A stretch of DNA of 5,801 nt from Lachnospiraceae bacterium (GTDB taxonomy: Bacteria > Bacillota > Clostridia > Lachnospirales > Lachnospiraceae). Position numbers and translations under genes: made by a program. How positions within the stretch are numbered: the stretch's first letter is position 1; each line of letters begins with the position of its first letter. This document shows positions 4,043 through 5,801 of the stretch, one piece after another. The notes below the pieces were generated by a model, which saw only the letters and a program-made list of their open reading frames with translations, did no database searches and was not told the origin of the DNA. The stretch is from the NCBI GenBank assembly GCA_900753685.1, contig CAAEAB010000081.1, positions 1 through 5,801 of the forward strand, given 5' to 3'.

Positions 4043-4517
4043 AGAAAGATATACCGGTTTAATTCACTGGGCTGAAAGGAAACCGATACGAAAAAAAATA
4101 CTTTGTTTTTTTAGCAGATTTCTTCCGATATGCCTGGCGGTAATCTATATATGCTGTCTGATTATTTGTTTTTTTGTCTATCCCGTATTACTTTTACGTT
4201 TACTTTTGCGTCCGGCCCTTTGTTTTTTGATAGTCACCCTTTTGCGTCGACTGCTGAAATTCCCACGTCCCTATGATGTCTATGAGTATATTCCCCTCTG
4301 TGATTATCATCCGGGAAAAAATTGCAGCTTTCCAAGCCGGCATACAGCCAGCGCAGCCATCATTGCCTTGGAGCTTTTCCGACTTTGGAGTAGATTGGGA
4401 TGCTTTCTGTTAATTTTGGCTTTATTCATCGGCCTGATCCGTATTTTATGTGGAAATCATTTTATTAAAGACGTTTTAGCGGCTTATGCCATTGCTTTAA
4501 TTTGTAGCATTCTGTGA
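4035..4517 (+). CDS. Small PAP2-family membrane phosphatase
   Basis: This is a 160-residue, strongly hydrophobic protein with about four to five membrane helices (roughly 28-50, 52-70, 104-117, 121-138, 146-160). All three parts of the PAP2 acid phosphatase signature are visible. Motif 1 is R71-x6-R78-P79 (Arg replacing the usual Lys). Motif 2 is P100-S101-R102-H103, a PSRH variant of PSGH. Motif 3 is R136-x5-H142-x3-D146. H103 and H142 would be the proton donor and nucleophile. Family members dephosphorylate lipid phosphates such as phosphatidic acid, phosphatidylglycerophosphate or undecaprenyl pyrophosphate; which one applies here cannot be told. At 160 residues it is shorter than many relatives but complete for the active site. 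It overlaps rng by 8 nt and ends the operon. No clear intrinsic terminator follows, so some read-through into the next gene is possible. Confidence 0.88.
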   Translation: MNEERYTGLIHWAERKPIRKKILCFFSRFLPICLAVIYICCLIICFFVYPVLLLRLLLRPALCFLIVTLLRRLLKFPRPYDVYEYIPLCDYHPGKNCSFPSRHTASAAIIALELFRLWSRLGCFLLILALFIGLIRILCGNHFIKDVLAAYAIALICSIL

Positions 4518-4590: not shown

Positions 4591-4622
4591 AAAACTAATT
4601 AATAAATAAAAATTCAAAAAAC

Positions 4623-4633
4623 AAAGGGGGGGG
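4623..4633 (+). promoter_or_regulatory. Poly-G ribosome binding site
   Basis: AAA followed by eight G residues (4626-4633) ends five bases before the ATG at 4639. A homopolymer of G pairs with the anti-Shine-Dalgarno pyrimidines in several registers. The in-frame GTG at 4633 overlaps this tract and would lack its own binding site, so ATG 4639 is preferred. Confidence 0.65.
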
Positions 4634-4638
4634 TGTTT

Positions 4639-5238
4639 ATGGGTAACAATTATATTATCACCATTGGCCGGGAATATGGCAGCGGCGGTCTCGAAATTGG
4701 TAAAAAGCTTGCTGAAAAGCTTGGTATTGGATTCTATGATAAAAATCTGATTGATGCTGCGGCGGAAAAATGCGGTATTCACATCGATGTTCTTCATAAG
4801 GCAGATGAAAAAGCAGCGAATCCATTGACAAATCCGTTTCTACATCCGGGATATGAGGCTGGTACAGTGAATGATCGACTGTTTTGGACTCAATCGGAAG
4901 TGATTCGTGAATTAGCTGACAAAGAATCCTGTGTCATTATTGGACGATGTGCAGATTTTGTTTTACGTGAACATGATAATGTTTTGAGAATCTTCATTCA
5001 GGCTCCGCTGGCTGATCGTGTAGCACGTATATCTGAAAAGTACCTGATTGAAGTTCCATCGGAGGCTAAAAAAGAAGTTTTGCGAAATGACAAGCTTCGC
5101 CGGTCTTATTATCAGTTTTACACAGACAGCAAATGGGGCGGAAGAGAACATAAAGACCTGGTAATTAACAGTAGTATTCTTGGTATTGACGGAACCGTAG
5201 AATTTATAAAAGATTTTGTACAACGGAAGTTTAATTGA
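4639..5238 (+). CDS. Cytidylate kinase-like family protein, intact paralog
   Basis: The 199-residue product has the length and motifs of the Cytidylate_kin2 family (AAA_33/Cmk-like P-loop proteins). The nucleotide-binding loop is ITIGREYGSGGLEIG (residues 7-21), where the usual GSGK lysine is replaced by Gly, as is typical in this family as I recall it. Other landmarks are FYDKNLIDAAAEKCG (32-46), a Walker B-like strand CVIIGRCADFVLR (98-110), and the conserved SYYQFYTDSKWG (156-167) with DLVINSSILGIDGTV (173-187), which correspond to the lid and nucleotide-monophosphate region of cytidylate kinase. True Cmk makes CDP from CMP; whether this protein phosphorylates CMP or has another target is unknown. 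It is predicted to be cytoplasmic. It has its own strong promoter and a terminator just downstream. A truncated paralog lies 260 bp further on. Confidence 0.9.
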   Translation: MGNNYIITIGREYGSGGLEIGKKLAEKLGIGFYDKNLIDAAAEKCGIHIDVLHKADEKAANPLTNPFLHPGYEAGTVNDRLFWTQSEVIRELADKESCVIIGRCADFVLREHDNVLRIFIQAPLADRVARISEKYLIEVPSEAKKEVLRNDKLRRSYYQFYTDSKWGGREHKDLVINSSILGIDGTVEFIKDFVQRKFN

Positions 5239-5497: not shown

Positions 5498-5767
5498 ATG
5501 AGTAGCAATTATATCATTACAATCGGTCGAGAGTTTGGCAGTGGCGGCCTTGAAATTGGTCAAAAACTGGCAGACAAACTTGGAATTAAATGTTATAAAT
5601 GTTATGACAAGGAATTGATTAACATGGTTGCCGAAGAAAAAGGATTCAAAAAAGAAGTCCTTGAAAAAATGGATGAAAAGAAAGGAAGCTTTCTTATCGA
5701 ACCATCCCTCGGGCTGTTTAAAACCAGGTCATATCCTTTTCGGCTACCCCATTTTGTATCCGTGTAA
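5498..5767 (+). CDS. Cytidylate kinase-like family protein, second paralog, N-terminal part only (gene split by inversion)
   Basis: The ATG at 5498 has AAAAAGGGGG seven bases upstream. The first 30 residues match the intact paralog at 25 positions, including the P-loop ITIGREFGSGGLEIG. Similarity continues through CYDKELI and VLEKMDEK to about L71 (codon 5708-5710, aligned with L68 of the first copy). After that the frame reads only a non-homologous tail to a TAA at 5765-5767, giving 89 residues instead of about 200. The missing downstream part of the family appears on the opposite strand directly after the junction. As written the product lacks the Walker B-like and lid regions and should not be a functional kinase. 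It could be the OFF state of an invertible gene, a fixed broken gene, or an assembly product. Confidence 0.75.
   Translation: MSSNYIITIGREFGSGGLEIGQKLADKLGIKCYKCYDKELINMVAEEKGFKKEVLEKMDEKKGSFLIEPSLGLFKTRSYPFRLPHFVSV
5588..5605 (+). repeat. 9-bp in-frame tandem duplication in the second paralog
   Basis: AAATGTTAT occurs twice in a row (5588-5596, 5597-5605). It turns the expected LGIKCYDKEL into LGIKCYKCYDKEL, adding three residues relative to the first paralog (LGIGFYDKNL). The insertion is in frame, so it does not by itself break the gene. Confidence 0.75.
5678..5695. repeat. 7-bp inverted repeat just before the inversion junction
   Basis: AAGAAAG (5678-5684) is followed after GAAG by its reverse complement CTTTCTT (5689-5695). 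The small hairpin ends about 13 bp before the junction. It may be chance, a pause site that favours template switching, or part of a recombination site. Confidence 0.4.
5708..5713. other. Inversion junction inside the second kinase-like gene
   Basis: Forward-strand homology to the intact paralog runs to about 5710, and reverse-strand homology to a later part of the same family starts at 5713-5715. The switch is therefore confined to roughly CTCGGG. The surrounding CCCTCGGG is nearly self-complementary (CCC/GGG arms), a short sequence that could be shared by both ends of the inverted segment. The second end lies beyond the window, so the repeat arms cannot be compared. Confidence 0.65.
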
Positions 5768-5801
5768 AATTCATAATAAGATGAACGCACTTTATCTATA
5801 T
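5713..5801 (-). pseudogene. C-terminal part of a cytidylate-kinase-like gene on the opposite strand (inverted fragment)
   Basis: Read on the minus strand from the window edge to 5713, this fragment encodes I-D-K-V-R-S followed by SYYEFYTDTKWGSRKGYDLV and L-N-S. It aligns without gaps to residues 150-178 of the intact paralog, with 19 of 29 positions identical, including the family-typical SYYxFYTDxKWG and DLVxNS motifs. The reading after LNS (PRDGSIRK...) is simply the antisense of the forward gene and is not homologous. The fragment has no start of its own here and enters from outside the window. The best explanation is that it is the inverted continuation of the gene starting at 5498. The alternative is the broken end of a third paralog facing it. 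Confidence 0.75.

Follow-up and report, generated by a model that had tools for sequence, protein, structure and literature searches.

The window, as we call the whole 5,801-nucleotide stretch of DNA analysed here, probably ends in a fold-back chimera that arose in library preparation, amplification or assembly and was left at the contig end. We put the probability of this reading at about 0.6. At this end, two pieces of a single cytidylate kinase-like gene, CK2, lie on opposite strands and meet on a short inverted repeat. The initial annotation had read the same arrangement as a possible phase-variable switch. We introduce the evidence for the structure of the join and then weigh the explanations for it.

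Gene order and nearest relatives

The features of the window are collected in Table 1. The named genes upstream of CK2 are open reading frames (ORFs) and are unbroken. The nearest named genome is Frisingicoccus caecimuris DSM 28559 (locus L001), with a CK1 protein identity of 93% and a DNA identity of about 77% over the region of the window. Neither the 5 genomes of the F. caecimuris genus nor 397 genomes drawn from its family yielded a same-species copy. The best match across these genomes was still F. caecimuris, at a DNA identity of 75–76%, where one of the DNA scans scored 2 candidates per genome only. Scanning viral contigs with CK1 turned up no relative. The window ORFs that were scanned include none assigned to a recombinase family. 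An exact 15-base inverted pair (4216–4230 and 4614–4628, 383 bases apart) extends from the end of the PAP2 gene to the stretch before CK1, and is probably a chance occurrence in T- and A-rich sequence.

Table 1. Features of the window, in gene order, with the pieces of CK2 at its end.
Feature	Position	Strand	Basis or remark
TIGR03960 radical SAM gene	first in window order		profile/ORF scan
TIGR03936/DUF2344 partner gene	after the TIGR03960 radical SAM gene		profile/ORF scan
RNase E/G gene	after the TIGR03936/DUF2344 partner		profile/ORF scan
PAP2-superfamily gene	after RNase E/G, before CK1		profile/ORF scan
CK1, intact cytidylate kinase-like paralogue adjoining CK2	4639..5238	+	PF13189, E 2.2e-53; 93% to F. 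caecimuris
CK2 N-terminal part (cytidylate kinase-like)	5498..5728	+	P0015 residues 1–74; PF13189 positions 1–56; codons to R at 5726–5728
Truncated 89-residue frame	5498..5767	+	stop at 5765; 56 of 176 PF13189 profile positions covered
9-base tandem duplication, two copies of AAATGTTAT	5588..5605	+	adds three residues in frame (KCYKCY for KCY), near the CK2 P-loop end
Junction, inverted-repeat arm of about 15 bases	5713..5728	both	L-F-K-T-R on +, L-V-L-N-S on -
Reversed CK2 segment	5713..5799	-	P0015 residues 161–189, match 29/29

Two pieces of CK2 on opposite strands

The intact form of CK2 is represented in the protein database by P0015, a protein of 210 aa with 32 member sequences on 20 contigs, the longest of 87,141 bases. 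The plus-strand frame that begins at 5498 encodes the N-terminus of the Cytidylate_kin2 domain (PF13189, E 3.4e-17). It falls short of a whole domain, covering profile positions 1–56 of 176, against 1–175 in P0015. The minus-strand piece matches the C-terminal part of the same domain (positions 147–174, E 1.5e-4), with a score of 22.4 bits, which is under the Pfam cut-off of 28. Over its first 72 residues, the window frame is 94% identical to P0015, from which it differs by a three-residue insertion and one substitution. From this match we infer that P0015 comes from the same species as the window. The 29 residues on the minus strand are identical to P0015, and the next different sequence among 120 proteins compared reaches 79%. 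The minus-strand piece is therefore CK2's own segment and no third paralogue. Both pieces derive from one gene, as the initial annotation had held, and the truncated product of 89 residues that it described stands as well.

The tandem duplication at 5588–5605 went unmentioned in that annotation. It lies 107 bases before the junction arm. The resulting KCYKCY occurs in none of the 266 database proteins fetched, which are the matches listed by three overlapping searches (the best 120 of 1,672, the best 120 of 132, and all 32).

The junction and its probable inverted-repeat arms

On the plus strand, homology to P0015 (L-G-L-F-K-T-R) reaches base 5728 and is followed by unrelated residues up to the stop. 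On the minus strand, the match to P0015 runs without mismatch from 5799 down to 5713. By the codons of both strands, the two readings overlap by about 15 bases, and the junction is therefore a short inverted-repeat arm. The jump to the minus strand, which had been placed within about six bases (5708–5713), is present in the sequence; the two homologies overlap at 5713–5728 with no gap between them. The earlier statement that no long arm repeats are visible needs correction when the window is judged against P0015, since one arm of about 15 bases is the junction itself.

The left arm can also be worked out from other proteins, independently of the window. Reading P0015 in frame 0 together with P0028, a broken CK2 form, in frame +1 gives (C/T)TGTTTAAAACC(A/C)G. 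The reverse complement of this deduced arm reads (L/R)-V-L-N, compared with L-V-L-N at P0015 residues 185–188. Intact CK2 very probably carries two inverted arms of about 14–15 bases, some 330 bases apart, the right one being read from residues only. One arm lies in the window, and the second would fall beyond it. The window ends at 5801, inside the reversed segment and 73 bases past the arm.

When genes were simulated at the composition of the L001 CK2, 4 of 2,000 contained an exact inverted repeat of at least 14 bases. The window and L001 were also cut into 70 overlapping tiles of 630 bases; 4 of these 70 contained inverted repeats of at least 15 bases, amounting to 3 distinct repeats. The simulation makes such arms look rarer than real sequence does, and their presence in real tiles means that they can arise by chance. 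In the CK2 genes of L001 and of locus L005, exact inverted repeats reach no more than 9 bases. The exact placement of the join on an inverted repeat indicates that this repeat produced it, whether in the living cell or in the tube. The length of 89 bases from 5713 to 5801 was also considered as an assembler k-mer size. It gave no clean fit to the usual values and would not discriminate between the explanations.

CK2 in relatives and its broken forms

The uninverted form that the initial annotation proposed to look for in relatives was found in other assemblies, namely in P0015 and in F. caecimuris. The order in L001 is CK1, an intact CK2 of 210 residues, and rplU. In L005, a second copy after CK1 is 56% identical to P0015. 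Of the 32 loci, only these 2 have a second copy next to CK1. The rplU gene was located in 7 of the 32 loci, and in 6 of these 7 (L002, L003, L004, L007, L009, and L016) it directly follows CK1 with no CK2 between, a count to which the other 25 loci, which could not be judged, do not contribute. CK2 is therefore a duplicate that relatives do without. A related protein, P0016, has 222 residues, of which the first part is like P0010 and the last part clearly different. It may have arisen by recombination between two paralogues, or as a further assembly chimera.

Several database entries are broken forms of CK2. P0028 is found on 16 contigs, the longest of 469,812 bases, and P0121 on a contig of 20,195 bases. 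Read from their residues, both fit one extra A in the tract just after the left arm, and they may be the two halves of one allele. Read in the same way, P0122 and P0029 have different frameshifts and lie on contigs 537 and 2,299 bases long, and P0127 has an internal deletion (3 member sequences, 16 contigs, the longest of 201,236 bases).

As a control, the search with the 89-residue protein was repeated with CK1. Short proteins were kept at an identity of at least 90% over at least 25 residues to chosen full-length references; 14 of 151 were kept and 137 dropped. The kept proteins are 6 CK1 and 8 CK2 entries. Two of the CK2 entries (P0028 and P0057) were retrieved solely by searching with full-length CK2, for which there is no corresponding CK1 search. 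Comparing equivalent searches leaves 6 broken entries for each gene, in assemblies that may be redundant. Contigs longer than 19 kb carry 3 of the 6 CK2 entries (P0121, P0125, and P0127), whereas none of the 6 CK1 entries lies on a contig above 5.1 kb. This contrast is weak, and P0125 lacks a new tail and may have been truncated by the end of its contig. Broken entries exist for CK1 too, which implies errors among the broken sequences in the database. Given the broken CK2 entries on long contigs, the gene may be on its way out, repeatedly lost in some strains, and a true inversion allele would not be absurd.

Explanations for the join

In the fold-back reading, the intact gene would carry the two arms about 330 bases apart, and a strand terminating at its 3' end within the right arm would anneal to the left arm and then be extended. 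The other strand of the resulting molecule would read N-terminus, arm, and reversed loop, as in the window. With little other coverage there, the assembler could have lengthened the contig with part of such a read. The join itself has the form of a fold-back chimera, two nearby inverted segments meeting at complementary bases (5713–5728, with the right arm deduced from residues). From its odd length we infer that the window is a whole contig. In that case the join would be no further than one read length from the contig end, a position accounted for by a chimeric end read but not by a real inversion. Two oddities stand close together near the end, the join and the 9-base duplication, against open genes upstream. 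The tail of the flipped product is seen in 0 of the 266 proteins fetched, and the 23-base junction has no match among the viral contigs scanned; both results speak for the chimera. Against it, 330 bases between the arms needs a long fragment. Assemblers usually require more than one supporting read, which also counts against a chimera. In addition, the other broken CK2 forms on long contigs make a real broken allele more likely than usual.

Artefacts of this type have been described. Under the PDSM model (PMC10908179), sequencing libraries contain chimeric reads that arise at natural inverted repeats and carry the sequence between the repeats as its reverse complement, and related artefacts are reported in PMC6941819. 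Among chimeras from multiple displacement amplification, 406 of 475 were inverted, and 337 of these 406 joined segments within 10 kb, with junction complementarity of 2–21 bases (PMC1855051).

A less likely alternative is that the segment of about 330 bases between the short arms really was inverted, once, for example by replication template switching. The window would then show a broken allele of a dispensable duplicate that is being lost from some strains, and no switch. The arms fit this explanation, as do the missing CK2 in 6 of the 7 loci and the further broken forms P0028, P0127, and P0121. For yeast genes, PMC8604942 documents the inversion of spacers flanked by short inverted repeats, albeit with spacers of a few bases and not about 330. 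The absence of the flipped tail from the fetched proteins weighs here in the other direction, as no second instance of the flipped form is among them. The position 73 bases from the sequence end would be left to chance, and, with CK1 also found broken, some of the broken entries are errors. A real flip would be one more way in which this duplicate kinase-like gene is broken within a single gut species, and would make repeated loss of CK2 directly testable.

The programmed switch proposed by the initial annotation is unlikely. In such an intragenic inverton, a recombinase would flip the segment and alternate a 210-residue kinase-like protein with a truncated one of about 89 residues. An internal kinase-like protein would be an unusual target for an inverton. 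Inverted arms very probably flank the coding segment, one seen and the other deduced from protein residues, and the unflipped form exists in P0015. Intragenic inversions have already been reported in bacteria (Chanin et al. 2024, as cited in PMC11868660). The lack of a named recombinase among the scanned window ORFs, of exact inverted repeats above 9 bases in the CK2 genes of L001 and L005, and of the flipped tail in the fetched proteins argues against a switch, as does the closeness of the join to the sequence end. Both orientations were not seen in one sample, the unflipped form coming from other assemblies only. The switch is not supported, and fold-back chimeras give the same picture near a sequence end (PMC10908179, PMC1855051). 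The predicted plus-strand tail also needs correction: LGIDGTVEFIKDF belongs to CK1, and the tail expected from P0015 is like AAFGIDTTVKILENIICEKFS.

It would be a far-reaching and hardly probable extension to regard CK2 as a contingency locus in gut Frisingicoccus, repeatedly switched off by A-tract slippage, by internal deletion, and by a segment of about 330 bases that flips reversibly between 15-base arms. Least credible of all is the idea that the minus strand carries a separate third paralogue. Tandem paralogues (CK1 and CK2) do occur here, but the match of 29/29 residues to CK2 itself led to the rejection of this candidate, and in the sister locus L001 the gene next after CK2 is rplU.

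Comparison with known systems

Intragenic invertons reportedly consist of a coding segment bounded by inverted repeats. The CK2 end is like those of Chanin et al. 2024 in that its coding segment very probably lies between inverted repeats. It differs in that no recombinase, second orientation, or arm conservation was found in the window ORFs, fetched proteins, and sister CK2 genes. The spacer inversions attributed to template switching share with the window a segment between short inverted repeats that is reversed inside a gene (PMC8604942). In examples from that source, the spacers are a few bases long and the arms 10–16 bases, compared with about 330 bases between the arms here.

Seen as an artefact, the window carries a warning: close to the end of a contig, two segments joined at a short inverted repeat look the same as an intragenic inverton. 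The PDSM chimeras were described in human DNA libraries, whereas the present join is known from assembled sequence. PMC10908179 only speculates on distant arms, and a distance of 330 bases exceeds what is demonstrated there. The order of the parts is the same in both cases, a part on the original strand being followed by the reverse-complemented stretch that separates two inverted-repeat arms. The chimeras of PMC1855051 come from amplified single-cell DNA and offer a parallel if the present sample was amplified as well. As in those chimeras, the two CK2 segments are inverted relative to each other, less than 10 kb apart, and joined where their bases are complementary.
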